From positions 3,725,001-3,789,000 of the forward strand of contig JAKZAN010000006.1 of the NCBI GenBank assembly GCA_023053545.1: a stretch of 64,000 nt of DNA, in the 5' to 3' direction. This DNA is from Lepidurus packardi. Taxonomy: Eukaryota; Arthropoda; Branchiopoda; Notostraca; Triopsidae. A model generated the notes under the pieces. The model was not told the DNA's origin, did not search any database, and saw only the letters and a list, made by a program, of their open reading frames with translations. Below, in pieces: positions 23,011 through 53,675 of the stretch. Position 1 is the first letter of the stretch; the number at the start of each line of letters is the position of its first letter. Both the position numbers and the translations under genes were made by a program.

Positions 23011-25388
23011 TTGTAATTGTTAATTTTTAAAAACAGTGTTTCGAAAACTTGGACTTTGAGTATGTTTATTTTTGACGACCACTCGCATGACGTTCACGGC
23101 CCACTCAGTTTTTAAGCATTGCCTTTCCAACAAATATAAAAAAGTATTGTCATCCTTATTATAAAAATAACCTAATATGTAAAATATGCATATTTATTCT
23201 TAATAGAATTCGGTATTTCAGGGTTCTACATAAATAGGGTAATAATAAACGTAGGCAACGTCAATGTATATCCTGTCTGGCTTTCCGTCACCACCTGTTC
23301 TCAAAGCATACCCTTGAGCCCGCGCTCTTGTGTTTTGTTTGTTGTGGTGTGGGACAAGACGGACGGTTTGGCTCTCTACTTCTGTAAGTAAGAAACCTAC
23401 ACACATTGATAGCTTCTTGAAATTCTATTTTGTCTCCTGCTGTCCTTTCTCATTACTTTTTAAGTCGTGTCAAATTTGTCAGTGCCTTATCACTTTTTCT
23501 ATTTTTATATTGTTTAAATAGGTAGATTATTTTTAAATCTGGTGTACTGTATTTGCACCGTACATTGTGTGACTAAAGCACTTAAGACCTTCAATTATTA
23601 GTTTCTATTATTAGTTCTATCATTAGTTTGTATTGTCCTGTTGTCAACTTTTCATTTTCTTATGGCTCCTAAGAAAAGTTGTACTTATTTTAAACCTTCC
23701 ATTGTCGTACGGTAATGTGTCAATGACATAATAAAAGTAGTTATTAGTTTCCAGTGAGAGATTCGTAAGAGGTATGGATTCTAGTATCAAGTCACCCACT
23801 TCGTGGTAGTGTACGTCCAACTATTCGCATGGCATATCGAAAGCGGATGTGAAGTTTGTACAATGCGCGTATATCCTTTGTGTCAACGGTGCACTTTCGT
23901 TCGCATTTAAATCCCAAGGGTTAGACGTGGACCAGGCTTTAGTTGTTTTGGTTTTGTTTCTCGTTCTATCCTTTCGAAGTTTGGGGAAAGTTCGGCTTGG
24001 GCTAGAAAATAGAGAAGATTTTGTTGACTTTCCTTTCGGGTAGTGGAAGCTCTTCACGTCGCCGTGTTACAGAGTCAAGCACGTCACTATAGAAACCATA
24101 TTCTAGGCTTAGTTCCCTGTTTTACCTTTATCCTTACGTAGAAATAGCTCAGGAGTTCTTGCCTGCTGAAATGCATATTTAATTCGTTCATTCTTCCAAG
24201 GTTAAACATTATGTTTGAGAAGAGTATTTTTCAGTACATGGTTTACTCTTCGCATGAAATCATAATGTGAAAGAATGGCCTGTATTTTACAGCAACGAGA
24301 TACCATTCACCGAACGACAGTTCCTTTTGATGTCAGATTCTCCTTAAAGACTTTAGGATGGTAGATCAGTCAGTAACCGCCTTTCCTTATAAAAACCCGT
24401 TTGGATGAGAAAAAAAGACAGTCAATGGGTACTTACTTAACATATGAGCAAAAGAAAATTCACGTCTTTAGTGATTAGCTGCGTTAGGGACTGCATTGAA
24501 ATGCTATTTTGCAAAAAAAATACCCGTGATTGGAAACGCTTGCAGTATTTTTTCAACGTAATAATTGTCCTCAGGTATTTTTCTCCTTTCCCCTTCTTCA
24601 TAAAAATATAGTAAGATTTATGAGGTCGAGAGTGTTTTATCTATTCATCTATTTTACATATAAATAGTATGGTAACGAGCAAGGGGAAAGGGTAGCAGAT
24701 GGCACTGGTGTTTGTTGCTGTTTTGCGAAACCCTTGCGTAAGAAAGTGAGAAAAGAAATAGATAGCTAATTCCCGGCAAAGTTTATAGACTTGTATTGCT
24801 TCTGAAAAGTACAATTTATCACCGCAATTCGCTGTAGCAGTACACTGTCCCAAATCCAGTCGTACAACTTAGGAACAAGATTTCTCGAAGATGGCTTGTC
24901 AGATTTGAACATTGAAGGCAAACTAAAACGAGTTTTCTTTCATTGGCAACTAGTGCACAACCAAAGGACAGAGTTTTAAGTAACGTATTTCTCATAGTTG
25001 CAAACTTAATTTGCATATTGCTAGTTTAATACACATTGGAGAAAATGTGCATTGGTTTTGCATTACCTGTTAGCAGGCTAACGAGACTAATGTCAAATAA
25101 TTTTTTCATTAAATGCACTGGCTTTCTCAAAAAGTTGCTCCGAAATTCCCCACCTAACCGCCTATACAAAGCTAAGATATACAGGAGCCTTAAGAATTTT
25201 GGGGTTTTGCATGCTGTTTCCGTCTTTTGGCTAAAAATGTAGCAATAATGGTTATATGTCTACACTCCTCAGCTTGTAACTACTATGCTAATATTAGTTA
25301 AACGAAGTGAAGAGCTTAGAAGGTAAATATTAAACTACCGAAATGGTAATTTGGAATTTTTTATTTCGTAGGTCCCAGTCATAGTGAA
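23011..25388. other. Spacer between TEX264 and vasa
   Basis: About 2.4 kb, AT-rich. It must hold the TEX264 promoter (left) and the vasa promoter (right). A splice acceptor tttcgtag at about 25,371 lies 18 bp before the vasa ATG, suggesting an upstream untranslated exon. I see no other gene: the open frames near 23.2-23.5 and 23.8-24.05 kb overlap on opposite strands and lack motifs. Confidence 0.55.
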
Positions 25389-29038
<3,650 letters not shown>

Positions 29039-29151
29039 TGGGAGTTTATTTGTGTTCCTTCTTTGACTTATTTCGTTTATAAATGTTACAATAACTCAGA
29101 AGAATGTGTCGTTTATAAGAAAAGGATGACCAGAACAAAAGATCATTTTCG

Positions 29152-29157
29152 AATAAA
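29152..29157 (+). terminator. vasa polyadenylation signal
   Basis: AATAAA 114 nt after the vasa stop codon; the nearest canonical hexamer downstream. Confidence 0.6.
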
Positions 29158-29482
29158 AGAAATAACTCATATTTTATACCTATTTCGTATTAGGCCAAGT
29201 TGATATAAATATGGCCATAGGTAGGAGTGCGTCTTAGTTTGTAATCTGCTTACAAAGAGAGACTTTTCGGGATAGGTTCTACCTCAACTAAGGCAAACTT
29301 ACCCATGATTAATAACATCGAAGGCGATATATTTACGTTCCCGTTTTCGTCCAGGGGCAAACAGCTTTTAATTTTGTAATATTGCGCGGGGCTTCGCTAA
29401 CCGGAATTTTGGGTCCAAGGACAGTTGTCTAGAAGGGACGGTGAACTGAAGCTTTTCTTTCTTTATTGGATATGTCCGCAAT

Positions 29483-29517
29483 TGCATCGTAAATAGAAGG
29501 CTTCGAGTGTCCGTAAT
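29483..29517 (+). repeat. Left flanking repeat of inserted DPYD fragment (35 bp)
   Basis: Begins tgcatcgtaaatagaaggc and ends gtgtccgtaat. The same sequence with one extra A recurs at 29706-29741. The two copies bracket the DPYD-derived fragment, like a long target-site duplication or a duplication made during break repair. Confidence 0.85.
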
Positions 29518-29705
29518 TGCGAGAATCAGCGCGTTGTCTAAAATGCGCAGATGCACCCTGTCAAACGTCGTGTCCGACGCAGGTGGATATTAAGAGCTTC
29601 ATTGGAAGCATTGCAACGAAGGTAAATCTCGCAAGGCTGCAACCTTGAGCAGGGGTCTCAAATTTGTTTTAGAATTACTACGGAGCAACCAAGGCTATAT
29701 TTTCC
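29516..29705 (+). pseudogene. Inserted 190-bp copy of DPYD exon 3 / intron 3 / exon 4
   Basis: Matches 30176-30365 of DPYD without gaps; I count 11 mismatches in 190 (about 94% identity). It contains the 3' part of exon 3 (iron-sulphur ligands CLKCADAPC), the whole 51-nt intron with its donor (GAAG|GTAAAT, 29622) and acceptor (TTTTAG|AATTAC, 29672), and the start of exon 4. Four mismatches fall in the exon 3 part (two silent, Lys to Thr, Leu to Val) and most others in the intron. Because the intron is present, it was copied from DNA, not from spliced RNA. It lies about 140 bp before the DPYD start codon, so it may be in that gene's promoter or leader. Confidence 0.9.
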
Positions 29706-29741
29706 TGCATCGTAAATAGAAAGGCTTCGAGTGTCCGTAAT
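29706..29741 (+). repeat. Right flanking repeat of inserted DPYD fragment (36 bp)
   Basis: Same as 29483-29517 except for one additional A. It continues into cattcagtcctg, presumably the original uninterrupted sequence. Confidence 0.85.
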
Positions 29742-29846
29742 CATTCAGTCCTGTACCACTTCCCATCCCAAAATACGTGTTCAGTCGTCTGTTCGCAAGT
29801 GTAGTGCGTTGTTTACATGGACTTGTGGTGAGTCGTTTACAAAAAA

Positions 29847-34004
<4,158 letters not shown>

Positions 34005-45986: not shown

Positions 45987-48900
45987 ATGTCTTGGTTACG
46001 TCATTGGCAAGTATGGCTCTTGCTTGGAATAGGAGCCGTTATGAGCCAAGGTACATTAAAGAAATAAAATATATATATCGTTCGTAATAGCAAAAAGCCT
46101 TAGTGTATTTTTTAAGCTTTTTGCGTATTTTAGATTTTATCTCCTTTCATTGATATATGTAACTGATTTGTAGGTTTAGCTCCAAGTCTTCGCGATAGTG
46201 TTCGCCAACCTTTACGTGTCCGTGAAGGAGAGGACGCTCTTTTGACGTGCGTCGTGCGGAATCTTGGCGATAATACTTTGGTGTGGATGAAGAGTGGGGA
46301 TGGGCACTCTGCCCAGCGCATTCTCACGGCCGGCGAGAATCGAGTCGACTCTGACAAAAGGTTCAGCGTCATGCACGATTCAGGTACTTGCTGCCTACCT
46401 TTATCCTCACTCGAGACCTTTGTTTTATTCATTCCCAGTGGTATCCTGAAACGTCCTTTACGTTTTACTTCTTTCCTCTCTTACTGTCTTAGTAAAAGGG
46501 AATAAATTGTACTTTTTTTACGTTTTATAGCTCCCACGCCCCCGATTGGAGCAACGCATGGCGGTGATGTTTGGGTTCTGGTCATTAAAGACTCGAAAGC
46601 GTCAGACACAGGCTTGTACACATGTGAGGTTAATAGCAACCCCGTCTTGCAGTCTTTTCATAACTTGGAAGGTAAAGCATCCTTATCTTTTTATTTCAAA
46701 GAGCTTTTAAGTATTTATTTGCAACTCGTATCGTTTTAGTTGTCTCGACTACCTCGGTTTCGCAACAAACTAGTGGCACCAATTCTACTGGAGACATTGA
46801 TATAGCTCATGATTACAAAAGTTGCTGCGTACAATCCAAAGTCAATTCCACTTGCTTGGGTTTCTGCAGCTTGAAAAACATTTTAGATGGAAATACCGGA
46901 ATTGATCCCGAGAAATGTGAAAGCGAGTTCCCCGCCATTGTCAAGTGCATGGCCGGTAAGTTTGCATTATTTAGAAGTGTGCCTACTTGTTTAAAAGACG
47001 AATGCTCTTGTCGCTGTAAAGCTCGGTAATGCTTTCGTTTCCCGTTCTTTTTTTTTCTTTATGGCATTCCGCTTTGCCGAGTTCAGTAAGCGAGATTGAC
47101 CATGTTTAAAAATAAACTAAAGTGAAAAAGTAAAAATTTCACTAATGTATATTGTATTGTACTTAAGATGGTCGCAACCACGTACCTTGCTGTACCGAAG
47201 AAGGCATACCTGATATTTGTCAAGATGTTTGTAGAGGAGAATATACGATTCCCTCAGACGATATCCAGACGCATTACTCCTGTTCGGCTTACACGGAGCA
47301 AACCTTGGCCTGCATTGCGGAAGGCATTCGTAAGGATTGGAGTAGCTTAAAAGCCTTTCTCCGATTAAAAGAGCTTGAGCAATTAATATTTTTTTTTTCT
47401 GTTCCGTGGGTGCGGTATTGAACCATTTCCAGAGCTATTGCCAAGCCCGCCGCAAGCTGTTGAAGTGGAAGCCGTATCTGAAACCACCGTCAAGATTATG
47501 TGGACGCCGCCCGGAGCGAATGTTCAGACGTTGACGCATTACGTAGTGAATATTACCTCCTTGGCGACTTTTGACGACGTCAAAGGCGACGAAGAAGATG
47601 GAGTACCGGATGTGCCTGAAACGCTATTTAAGTTACAAGTAATGAAGTCCTTTTTTTTAAGCACCTCACCTTGTACCCATTCAAACTTAATGGCATACAT
47701 GTGATTTTATTCGGTGTTTCTGTACAGGTGTCAGCCCAAGAAAATAGTACCATGATTGACAATCTGGTGCCGTTTAAAATGTACGAAGCTACTGTGATAT
47801 CTCATAATGTACATGGCAGCAGTTTGCCCAGCTTTCGAGTCCGGTTTTTAACGCAAACTCCAACTTCGGCTCGGATAACCAGTGCTCCTGCTCTGCCAGA
47901 TATTCGGGCTTGCTGCAATAGCAAAGGAATCTACCATAGCAGGTAATTCAACTCCGTCACAATTGCTGTCTCGCTATGCTCTCTCGCAGCGAATTTTTTT
48001 TACGAAACTCGACAAACATCAAAGTAGCGTGACGGGACGTGTGACGTACTTCGTTTCGTTTCCTTGTCTTTATTGGACTGAAATCTCTTCGTAGAATTTC
48101 TGCTATTATCTCGAACGCCAAAAAAGATTGGGGTATAAAAAAAACAATGTACCCCCCAGCGAGTAAATGACGAATCCGGCGAGAAACGTTCGGTGACAGT
48201 TTAACGTTAATGCGTTCCTTTCTTCTTCTTCGATGAAGAAGAAAATATACTCGCAAACTCGATTTTTTCTCCTTCAAGCTAATGCAGCGGAAACCTTTGT
48301 TTGGTGGAGGACAAAGATACAAAGCATGAACTTGGAAATCGTAGTATTGGAAGAAATAGCTTAGCATTGCGTTTATCGTCCTGCTTCATATTTGTTTTCG
48401 CTACCCTATCAATATTATAGATTGTATCCCAAGTTACCTTCCACTCTCATTTTTTTCTTGGAGGGAGGGATCTTTACGTCATGAGGAGTGTGTTTTTTCA
48501 GTTTAGAACCATTGAGAGTTTTTGACATCACTTTCTTTTTCTTCATCTAGTTGTTTGGATAAGTTCTGTGATCCCATAAAGTCAGCTTCTGCCAATTTGC
48601 CGGATTTAATGATTTGCGCCCCATGGGCTAGTGACAGCTTTTCGTGTTTAGCAAATGGTATGGATCATACGGCTTGCTGTAAAAGCCGAGGTTTACCTTC
48701 CGCCTGTGTTCAGCTCTGTTCGGGAAACGTCACGCGCATAGATTTCAGCCACTTTCGGTAAGAACAACCTGCATGGCCCTTAGAATAACAAGCTCTCAAA
48801 CTCAAAGTTATCACAGGAATAACGGCATTATAGCCTTGATATAATTTAGAGATCCGGTTTACAACTGTTTTACATCTTTCCCCTACGCAGATGCATCCAG

Positions 48901-51900
48901 TATATGGGGGATTTGAGTAATTGCATGCTACAAGGTTATGGCGTATTGCCCAGCGCTCCCGTCTTCGTGCGAGTCAATAACATCAATTCTAACTTCGCTA
49001 TCCTACATTGGGAATTACCCAAATCTTTGGGTAAAACGGTGAGTGGGTACAAGCTACGCTACCGAATCATGGACGATATGAAAAACGAACAATATAAAAG
49101 TGTGGACGTTACGCTAAATACCTACATTCTGGAAAATCTAAGCCCGGCTTCGGAGTACGAAGCGTACGTGAGCGCCGTAAACAGCTACGGTGTTGGCGAG
49201 CCTTCTACCCGCGTAATTTTCAAGACTACCAAAGATCAAGTCAGCCAGTTCCGCGACGCTGTTGCTAATGTTTACAACATGACTTCGTGCTGTGAAGAAG
49301 TCGGTTTAAGTAGCCATTGTATGCCATTATGCGGCTATGGGGTGAAGCTGAGCGACCTGCGTTCCCTGGTCACGGTTTGCGGCAAAGAATTCCCCAAGTT
49401 GTTGCGTTGTGGGACCGGCGGACGCAATCATCTACCTTGTTGTAAACGTCGTGGTATTCCAGACACGTGTCATTCGCTGTGTACCGGAGCAGTCGCTGAA
49501 GAAGTATTGACAACCGCCGCAGCTTGTATCCCTTATTTGGGCGCAGTCCTCCAGTGCTTCGAGGAAGGTAAAGTGATCCACCCATTTTGTTCTTCTTCCT
49601 CTTCTTTTTCTCTTAATTTGTATACCATACTCTGAAAATTTCAGATATCAATGTCAGATTACCACAAAGTAAAAGTAAACCTATGCGAGTCCTTTTTTGT
49701 ACTAACAAGTACAGCGCAAAGCATTGTATTACCCGCATGGGTTTACTTTCATTGGAGGCAACAAGCGCTTCGAAAAGAAATCTCTCGGGATTCTAAATGG
49801 ATGAACACCGGTGAATTGGGCTTTTGTTCGTTAGTATGCTAGTCCGGAGTGTAGTTTTATCTCTTCGGATGATAATCGATTCCTGTTTTCTTAGAACTTT
49901 TGAAACAAGAAATGACACTCCATAGTAACGTAGTTTTGCCCAATCTCTGAAAACCTAATCCAAAGAAAAAAATAAATTGGCTGCTTTGGTCGCTAAATTC
50001 TCCGTTATTTTGCTTGCGTTTACATGTGCATATTTAGAATCACGACATGCAAGGCCTTACGGTAATAAATATAGCACAGTTGGAAGTTTTCTTTATTCTC
50101 GAGCACGCTACAAGCAAATCAAGCTGGATCCCAAACCCTAGGGGTGTTCATGTTATTGTTACGCACCGTTTTTTCATTTTTTTTTTTTCGTTTTTTCTTT
50201 TCCAAGTCACGATTTGAATACTAACCTTCGTTATTCTAATACAGGCACGGGTTTCCTGCCAGCTCCGATTACTCAGCTACACGCGACAGCCGTTTCCAAC
50301 AATAGCATCACATTGGTATGGCAAGCGCCTTTGGAAGGCCAGATTGACAGTTATATCGTTTATTACCAAGAAACCGACAAGACTTCGTCTCCACGCATCA
50401 GTCTTACTCTAAAAGACGTAAGTTGACCTTAAATATACAAGTTCAACCAATAAGTTTGTTTCAACCTCTTTAGTCGATAAATACTACCGAGCCTGTGGCA
50501 GTAATTAATAACTTGAAGCAATATTCGGCCTACTCGTTTTTTGTACTCGCATTAAACACATACGGAACTTCTTTACCTTCATCAATCCTGACTGTCAATA
50601 TCTCTGAAATCGGTGAGTTTTCTTTATTACGGGGGAGGTGGGAGACATCACTTATGTCTAACTTCTTTTCGGTTCTTATTTAACTTAGCTTTGAGTAACG
50701 GCACGGTGGTTGGAGTCCCATCTGCTCCGCAAGGTCTCACAGTATCAAGCCGAAGTGCGGACTATATCACCATTACGTGGCAGCATCCAGTGATCATGCA
50801 CCCTACAGATCGCCTGGTTTATAGGTATGTTGCGTGGGACTTTGCTACCAACTCATCCATAATGGAACGCTCGGCAACCGAGCGTTAAAAAAAATCGTAG
50901 AAATGGATCTTCAAGAAAATTGTTTATGTCTAGGGTTTACCACCGGTCCCAGAACGCGACTAGTTTTTCATTCGTGGAAACGTCTGCCACGTCTTATCGA
51001 CTGTCCAATCTAACGGCTAATACTCAGCATATACTATATGTGACGGTACACAATGATCACGGTGAAAGCAGACCTTCAGAAACTCTGCTGGCATGGACAG
51101 ACCCTGCTTATGCTGCCTTAGTCGAAGTAAGTCAAAGTCAAGTATTAGTTTTTTTTCGTATCTTCAATTTCCTCCTTCGCCCACCTTCCTCTTTTGTAAT
51201 GGAGCTAGCGAAAGGAAATGAGTAGTCATGTATTCCAGAAAGACCGAGAAAACATTGCAAGACAACTCTCAAAGCATGGGATATGGGTGAAGAGGGGGAG
51301 AAAAAATGAAAGTCTCAATTCAATTATGACAGAAAATGCAAGTCGGGTCGCATTTCTTAATAGTATACAGCCGCTTTTGTTGTTTCGTAAAGTTTTTACG
51401 TTATTTTTTATGTATATATTTGTGAGGTACATTTCAGCTGATTGTAGATATACGTACTGATGACTTTTTCCAATTTGGTATCGCTTCATCGCAGATTCCC
51501 ACGATTCATCCCATTAGTATTGTCTTGGAAGGCGGCAGTATGACAGTTTTGTGTGTAGCCATGGGGACACCGATGCCAACCGTTTCCTTGTATTTGTCTG
51601 GTCAGCTCATTCATCAAGAACGGACCCGACATATGGTTACAGTCATTAGCAACGTGACCCGTGATATAAATTATGTCACCTGCCATGCGGATAACAACGT
51701 TGGTTCACCTTCCCAAGCTTCACGTCGTGTTGTCATAGGGCGTAAGTTTCCATTTTTATCAATATTATCGTTTTTTTTTACAACGATTTCATGGAGAACT
51801 GTTATTCCGTAACTATATTGTTTTCATGCACACTACGAGAGCTAAATTTTGTGTGTGCTTGTTTGTAGGTCGCCCACGTGTGGTGGCGCCTTTAGTAACA

Positions 51901-53675
51901 ATGGTTTCTTTGAACAATGATGGCGTTCTTGAGTGCGAAATCGACGCACATCCTTTACCAACAATGTTCTTTTCGCGAGACATCGACGGGCATGAAAAAC
52001 TTAGCAATGATAGCAAATATTCTGTGCGGATTTTACGAGACAATGACAATTACTTGGACGCCACCTACATTCTCCAGCTGAAGATTAAAAATGTCGAAGA
52101 GCGTGACGCTGGCAACTTTTACTGCACCGCCCAAAATACCTTTGGCAGTTTTTCTCAGACTGCGCGACTGCAAATACGTGAGAAGCAGCCTGCACCGTCC
52201 ATCAACGTGGGTCAATGTTGTGTGGAACAAAACGTGACTTCAGCGTGTATGGATGCATGTTCCGTATTCTTGGATATCGAAGCTGTTATTGATCGACCAG
52301 AATGCATTGACGACTTCCAAAAGCTTATGCGATGCGCTGCAGGTACGAGAGACAAACTCGAGAACTCTTTGGTTGCCTTTGACTCCTTGTTTCTGTTGTT
52401 TGTTCTCGCCTTTCATTTTCGCCCTCGTTTCTCATCTCTTGTCCCTAGCAAGCATAAAGTCGAGATTAATGGGATAATCATGTATCCACAGATGGCTCAG
52501 ATCACCGTAGTTGTTGCTCTCAGTGGGGCGTACCTCGCCGCTGCCTCGATTGGTGCCGCGGCGAGCCCGTGCCGAGTGCGGAGCTCTGTGTTCTGTCTTA
52601 CACCAAGCAAATCGTTTCTTGCTTTTATGAAGGACGAGGTAAAACAACCATTTTCTCTTCCTCTAAATTTTTCTCTGAAACAGACGGGGAAAGATACCGT
52701 TGTTTCCAGCATCCCACTTATGTAAAATATGAAATACGTAATGGCGTAGTCTTGTTAATTAGCTAATGAGCTTGTTTGTGCGTTCACGCGTTTATTCTTC
52801 GTATACAGACAGCATTCCCGGTCCACCTCAAAACGTTCGTGTGGAGATAACTGGGGATAATGTAGCTCAGATTTCGTGGGATCCACCAGCCAAAAATCCA
52901 CACACTGTGGAACTTTATAGGTGAAATACGCCTGAACTACGTTTTAAAAAGAGCTTGGATTATGATTAATTTCTTGTGGTATGGCAGAGTGTTCTGGCAA
53001 CAAGTTGGATCATTGCAAGCAGAGAAAAATGATACCAAAACCACAAGCTTGCAGGTTTCTGGACTTAAAGAGGGTCTTGTGTACCAATTTGTACTTAAGG
53101 CCGGTAATAGGCGCGGTACGAGCACTTTGACTGCTCCCATGCAGTTTACTATGAGTGACAAGTACATTATGTCAAGCACTACAGGTAAACGTACATTTTT
53201 TCCTCCAATTCTCTCTTGGAGAATAAGAGTGGGGTATTAATGATGTCTTGTACCGAACTGTACAGGTGCAAGCAATCCTCATTTGGGCGTGGCGGTAGGT
53301 GTCGTATTAGCATTGGTTTTCATTATCGCTGCTGTCGCGGCTGGTTTCTGTTATCTGCGAAAGAAAAAAATCACCGGAATTAAAATGTCCGGTGGAGTTT
53401 CCTTCGACAACCCTAGTTTTCTCCGCCGAACTCAAGCTTCAGATACTATACAGGTAAATAAGGTTTTAACTTCAAACGAAACGACGAATGGATTGATGCA
53501 TTCATTTTCTGCATAGATTATATCCTCGGAGGTTCAACCAGACACCGAAACTAATCAATCTAATGGATGGAAACAAGAGCCACTCCAAGTCCCAGCTCAC
53601 AGCGAAGTAAAGCCCAATGTTTATGAAGAGCTGCGCTTAGGGACCGAAGGAGCCGGTTTCAAACGACTGAAGTAA
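45987..53675 (+). CDS. Ig / FN3 / DB-module transmembrane receptor, 20 exons, 1420 aa
   Basis: Cell-surface protein resembling C. elegans C25G4.10; adhesion or receptor role is inferred. Exons: 45987-46050, 46174-46383, 46531-46671, 46740-46955, 47168-47329, 47433-47638, 47728-47942, 48551-48757, 48891-49567, 50245-50417, 50474-50612, 50689-50824, 50934-51126, 51495-51741, 51869-52342, 52492-52638, 52809-52920, 52988-53184, 53266-53453, 53517-53675; all phases agree. Signal peptide (WLLLGIGAVMSQG), Ig1 25-138, DB1 ~160-264, FN3 266-375, DB2 ~385-490, FN3 493-590, DB3 600-699, FN3 702-803 and 810-913, Ig2 914-995, Ig3 996-1095, DB4 1102-1202, FN3 1203-1300, membrane helix ~1313-1335 (VAVGVVLALVFIIAAVAAGF), cytoplasmic tail of 85 residues with FDNPSF. 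DB modules show the paired motif, e.g. SCC...C...C then HLPCCKRRGIPDTCHSLC. Confidence 0.9.

Follow-up and report, generated by a model that had tools for sequence, protein, structure and literature searches.

A DPYD exon-intron-exon segment copied into a short tandem duplication upstream of its own gene

Introduction

How did a piece of the DPYD gene, made of the end of one exon, a whole intron and the start of the next exon, come to lie just upstream of the gene itself, between two nearly identical copies of a local segment? The locus lies in a window, meaning the whole stretch of 64,000 nucleotides that was analysed (contig C5, 3725001-3789000), within an assembly of 108.6 Mb and 344 contigs. 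The original prediction held that the piece was templated by DNA, and that its flanking repeats pointed to the repair of a staggered break by means of a locally copied patch. Below, we describe the structure of the locus, its uniqueness and its decay, and weigh the ways in which it could have arisen and what it could do to the DPYD leader.

Results

Structure of the locus

The features are as follows, R being the duplicated target segment and the patch being the inserted piece.

29473-29482, + strand: older 10-mer TGTCCGCAAT, abutting R1 on its left, identical at 9 of 10 positions to the end of R
29483-29517, + strand: R1, first copy of the target segment, 35 nt, ending in TGTCCGTAAT at 29508-29517
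29516-29705, + strand: patch, a copy of the end of DPYD exon 3, intron 3 and the start of exon 4 (self-alignment and genome search)
29622-29672, + strand: intron of the patch, 51 nt, AAG/GTAAAT ... TTTTAG/AA, donor identical to that of the source
29706-29741, + strand: R2, second copy of the target segment, 36 nt, with one extra A
29847-34004, + strand: DPYD (dihydropyrimidine dehydrogenase), apparently intact (structure match and spliced alignment)
30176-30365, + strand: source segment within DPYD (exon 3, intron 30282-30332, exon 4)

Pairwise alignment of patch and source gave 179 identical positions of 190, the 11 differences being substitutions without any gap, exactly as had been predicted. 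The two flanking copies, predicted to be nearly identical and 35 and 36 bp long, are so: no substitution separates R1 from R2, and their sole difference is one more A in R2, within a run of A. Both are local sequence unrelated to the DPYD patch. The letters AT (29516-29517) are common to the end of R1 and to the patch, which leaves a 2-nt ambiguity in the position of the left breakpoint. The intron of the patch has kept the length of the source intron, with its splice sites the expected 51 nt apart. Reading towards the gene, the order is R1, patch, R2, 105 nt, and the DPYD ATG at 29847; the patch ends 141 nt before this ATG, close to the 140 bp first given. The source is local: it shares the strand and the orientation of the patch and is separated from R2 by 434 nt, the distance between the two copies being 660 nt today.

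Two direct copies of one segment are therefore found with a nearby-templated insert between them, and the insert is framed by a target duplication of 35/36 nt, as in patch-mediated repair. We conclude that the locus is a local templated insertion inside a short tandem duplication. Most likely, a 190-nt exon-intron-exon piece was copied upstream of its own gene through an error of DNA repair or DNA copying.

The gene downstream was identified by an 89-residue segment that matches the dihydropyrimidine dehydrogenase structures 1gt8/1h7w (E 4e-51), which we take to be pig DPYD chains. A spliced alignment and an intron list, both based on a human DPYD sequence, gave 18 introns of 47-81 nt, intron 1 being 29886-29949. 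This alignment stops at 33980, and the reading frame continues to a TAA at 34004. On the left, a gene on the same strand (roughly 25370-29038) has by eye the look of a vasa/GLH-type helicase with several CCHC zinc knuckles; its stop is at 29036-29038, so that about 0.8 kb of intergenic DNA surrounds the patch. Further downstream, the open frames 48850-49635 and 51739-52725 carry fn3 or Ig domains together with DB modules, a module typical of nematodes, on which basis the host is taken to be a nematode.

Uniqueness of the patch and of its arrangement

When the whole 108.6-Mb assembly was searched with the patch, two places were found, both at this locus, with an E value of 1.1e-78 for the source. 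With up to 3 mismatches allowed, a 21-nt core of R was likewise matched twice in the genome, each time at this locus; the backward control pattern was matched once. With patch and R core each at just two places in the assembly, a mobile element was rejected. The assembly search found no second copy of the locus able to show the empty site.

The frequency of such arrangements was scanned for in 264 kb (the window and the 200 kb that follow it on the contig), keeping same-strand self-hits within 8 kb of each other at E ≤1e-6, with the low-complexity filter on. An exact edge repeat longer than 15 nt was present in one of the 79 local self-hits, the DPYD patch; the remaining 78 lie mostly within tandem arrays. 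A second scan looked for exact repeats of at least 16 nt placed 60-1200 nt apart, low-complexity words being omitted. It gave many pairs inside arrays. Those outside arrays comprised the DPYD locus, two duplications in tandem or nearly so, a single diverged pair, and two isolated pairs of short repeats. The rate is thus one in 264 kb, for a single stretch of one contig that was picked because the finding lies there.

Among the pairs outside arrays is an isolated exact direct repeat of 20 nt whose copies are 80 nt apart (L022:2326-2345 and L022:2406-2425), possibly a second insertion framed by a target duplication. Another isolated exact repeat, of 17 nt, has its copies 91 nt apart (L017:9157-9173 and L017:9248-9264). 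A near-tandem 166-bp duplication (L018:1726-1891 and L018:1897-2062) is 94.6% identical with a 5-nt spacer, a divergence similar to that of the DPYD patch.

As to the assembly itself, a COX1 search returned 41 matches of mixed kinds. Many are fragments with TGA codons on larger contigs among C1, C2, C4, C5, C6, C21 and C38, and look like nuclear mitochondrial DNA copies. Frames without stops occur on C52, C214 and C43; they have a bacterial look, and cobiont contigs may therefore be part of the assembly.

Divergence and decay of the patch

Six of the 11 differences between patch and source fall in the 51-nt intron, two are synonymous and three are nonsynonymous (K to T, L to V and A to T), the latter at residues on which the source and 1gt8/1h7w agree. 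Intron, synonymous and nonsynonymous sites, together with R (0/35), fit a single rate of about 3.2% per lineage (heterogeneity p = 0.20), under which, if neutral, R would show zero change with a probability of 0.08. The intron (6/51) does not differ significantly from the exon parts (5/139; p = 0.07), nor does R from the patch (0/35 vs 11/190; Fisher p = 0.22), or from the intron taken alone (p = 0.077). The contrast between R and patch was accordingly rejected as a proof of an allelic template, and there is no need of a diverged allelic template to explain the differences of the patch.

The substitution counts gave no evidence of selection on the patch, which would behave as a neutral relic, drifting as non-coding 5′-flank sequence. 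Its coding decay is visible in the frames: a TAA directly precedes the first codon of the patch, no ATG opens its frame, and the frame, shared with the DPYD ATG once the patch is spliced, meets two stops before this ATG if spliced and four if unspliced. A coding function was rejected on the preceding TAA and on these stops, and no protein would be expected from the patch's own frame.

The edges of the duplication and the origin of the patch

The edges of R bear on how the locus arose. R corresponds exactly to one period of an older direct repeat that is imperfect, TGTCCGYAAT (9/10), and its edges are in register with this repeat. In 400,000 random placements, an in-register 10-mer was met in a fraction of 3.45e-4; a 10-mer match at spacing 35 was found at 34 of 263,700 positions, 4 of those 34 being the DPYD locus itself; and with a slack of ±5 nt on either side, 197 of 100,000 placements qualified. 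The chance of an in-register 10-mer is therefore about 1e-4 to 2e-3. After the shared AT, the patch opens with TGC, like R, three letters that would agree by chance in 1.8% of cases. The microhomology on the left is AT, or ATTGC if the R-R junction primes, and the right junction (TTTTCC/TGCATCG) has none.

The origin we favour, with confidence evenly balanced, is a past accident of repair or replication in which a slipped end switched template to DPYD, giving a tandem duplication with a templated insertion. In the germ line, a growing or broken end would have halted after TGTCCGTAAT, i.e. at the end of R, re-annealed 35 nt back on the near-identical TGTCCGCAAT, and been extended by a few bases (TGC). 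The extended end would then have switched to DPYD exon 3, 434 nt downstream, through the microhomology ATTGC, copied about 190 nt of exon-intron-exon, and finally been joined, without microhomology, to a strand starting at the start of R. This presumed order of steps would leave 35 bp duplicated in tandem and, where the two copies meet, a templated insertion of 190 bp, and from then on the patch would have drifted in the non-coding 5′ flank. Polymerase-theta-type end joining may have been at work, or a failed synthesis-dependent strand annealing.

The in-register 10-mer and the shared TGC fit such a slipped primer that changed template, since an end slipped to the first 10-mer and extended by TGC would carry ATTGC, with which the source also starts. 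Judged on these letters, a slip with template switch seems no worse an account of the locus than a 35-nt overhang. In C. elegans, helq-1 mutants are described as accumulating tandem duplications with microhomology and occasional templated insertions, and the authors' model is that in the absence of HELQ-1 end joining acts on failed strand-annealing intermediates (PMC8654963). In brc-1 mutants, polq-1-dependent tandem duplications are reported, some with homology at the junction and some with insertions (PMC7368036). The DPYD locus resembles the helq-1 products in its duplicated segment, in its insert copied from nearby and, at the left switch point, possibly in microhomology.

Several points count against the slip. 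The helq-1 duplications span about 100 bp to 10 kb (PMC8654963) and the templated insertions of polymerase theta are generally shorter than 25 bp (PMC12426944), unlike the 35 bp and 190 bp found here; the duplication is below the helq-1 range, and the patch far exceeds the short inserts by which theta-mediated end joining is recognised. Tandem duplications are also rare in wild-type worms, with zero in 240 generations (PMC7368036), the return junction has no microhomology, and the 10-mer was noticed post hoc, with lenient odds of 2 in 1,000. By analogy, a helq-1-type mechanism nevertheless appears closest to the DPYD locus, despite its longer duplications and the shorter theta inserts.

Other routes to the same structure

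The staggered double-strand break of the original prediction, with an overhang of about 35 nt whose ends are filled and joined through a locally copied patch, would produce R-patch-R in one event. In mouse ES cells, tandem duplications arise from nickase pairs that leave 46-nt overhangs (PMC5730883), CST-guided polymerase alpha-primase is reported to make them at 3′ overhangs (PMC8355091), and insertions in rice led to the proposal of patch-mediated repair (Vaughn and Bennetzen 2014, as given in citing papers). A break at arbitrary places predicts neither the in-register 10-mer at the edges of R, which is left as a coincidence, nor the TGC common to patch and R. The locus does not require such a break, nor does it establish one, its R edges being in register with the older 10-mer; we regard this origin as rather unlikely, as one route among several, another being better supported.

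The duplication and the insertion could also have come in two steps. Either slippage between the 10-mers first doubled R, the patch then entering at the R-R junction, or the patch came first, entering at TGTCCGCAATTGC through the 5-nt ATTGC, and an unequal exchange between filled and empty chromosomes at the 10-mers added R1. By reasoning, both variants make use of the 10-mer and of ATTGC and yield the observed segment order. They are unlikely, as two rare events are required at one site, and the divergence counts (R 0/35, patch 11/190; Fisher p = 0.22) cannot order them.

The same segment order would result from a 660-bp tandem duplication, running from R through the start of exon 4, whose first copy later lost about 434 bp from its interior by deletion. 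Changes of both classes are common, but two events are again needed, the deletion would join the end of R to exon 3 with just AT shared, and the 10-mer stays unexplained, all of which makes this history very improbable.

Copying from RNA was also considered. A processed retrocopy was rejected, as the 51-nt intron is kept. A LINE-type retrotransposition of an unspliced DPYD pre-mRNA fragment would bring the intron along and leave a target-site duplication, here of 35 bp. The class 1 insertions described in humans have a poly(A) and a preference for TTTT/A (PMC5110952); unlike them, the DPYD patch lacks both. No poly(A) or T run is seen at either end (ATTGCG... and ...TTTTCC/TGCATCG), the target is CAAT/TGCA rather than TTTT/A, and the fragment begins and ends within exons. 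With its tail absent and its target wrong, a LINE insertion was rejected as the best reading, and we hold it to be highly improbable. Of the predicted DNA template, then, what stands is a local, intron-keeping copy that is no spliced retrocopy and has neither poly(A) nor LINE-like target; the argument from the intron does not stand by itself, since an intron alone does not exclude copying from unspliced RNA. Finally, an assembly artefact is barely credible, given that the patch carries 11 substitutions and R an indel, which argue against a simple duplication of reads, and that the locus is internal to a 12.48-Mb contig.

Splice potential in the 5′ flank

Splice sites were scored with a matrix made from 17 DPYD introns, the source intron being excluded. 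The donor of the patch scores 9.88 bits, a value surpassed by 3 of the 18 DPYD donors (range 2.56-12.08); it is the strongest in 29050-29846, where just two others exceed 4 bits, the best at 4.67. The acceptor scores 1.34 bits, with 16 of the 18 DPYD acceptors above it (range -3.45 to 9.89). Elsewhere in this flank it is outscored by no fewer than 8 AG sites, the best reaching 8.23 at 29224. Such a weak acceptor among stronger AG sites speaks against its being the preferred partner of the donor.

Two upstream ATGs are added by the patch, with frames of 16 and 24 codons if unspliced, the second reaching 37 codons if spliced. A splice from the patch donor to exon 2 would, as derived from the letters, keep the frame and lack a start. 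The patch could thus alter the DPYD leader. That it is transcribed and its 51-nt intron removed within the DPYD 5′ leader seems doubtful.

As to trans-splicing leaders, the canonical SL1 22-mer had no match in the genome at up to 3 mismatches (two for the backward control), an absence that would be in keeping with a nematode from outside the groups with canonical SL1. A search for the SL1 RNA family found no match in the assembly, and likewise none in 14 control genomes, and is hence uninformative.

Discussion

The DPYD locus belongs to an already known class, in which the length of the insert and the complete intron are unusual. It shares with patch-mediated repair (Vaughn and Bennetzen 2014, as given in citing papers) a target duplication that frames an insertion. 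Such repair has been invoked in Antirrhinum for a 608-bp promoter insertion with imperfect flanking repeats of 8 bp (PMC5244254). Unlike in the cases described for this repair, the DPYD duplication is bounded by an older imperfect 10-mer, and its source is 434 nt away. Human templated sequence insertion polymorphisms are also copies of another genomic segment, and are divided into a class 1 with target duplications and a class 2 ascribed to repair by a patch (PMC5110952); the DPYD patch differs from class 2, as described there, by its long target duplication and its local source.

Several kinds of intron gain come close as well. In Daphnia pulex, gains attributed to staggered breaks have direct repeats that frame a potentially spliceable insert, as here (PMC4202315). 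The 33 repeats shared there by the new intron and the adjacent exon measure 4-12 bp, against 35/36 bp at DPYD, and the DPYD insert, unlike the Daphnia gains, carries a ready-made intron whose splicing is putative. In intron gain by tandem genomic duplication, of which a review table counts 188 cases in several organisms including Caenorhabditis, the duplication likewise brings the splice sites (PMC3443670). They come in that review from a duplicated exonic segment, whereas at DPYD the copy took in an entire intron and the exon edges beside it.

We conclude that the locus is an ordinary kind of repair scar, notable mainly for bringing an apparently intact intron along. A single case does not settle the choice between a staggered break and a repeat-primed slip; the edges of this one retain enough letters for the question to be asked. 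The sources of new introns are often not found, and for the 168 introns gained in Caenorhabditis none was identified in the study reporting them (PMC9169325); here source, target and copied intron can all be read within 1 kb. If the intron of the patch were indeed removed from a DPYD leader, this would be an intron gain in a presumed nematode with a fully traceable source, delivered ready-made by one local templated insertion, and the new uORFs together with the new strong donor could modulate the output of DPYD or redirect splicing to exon 2.
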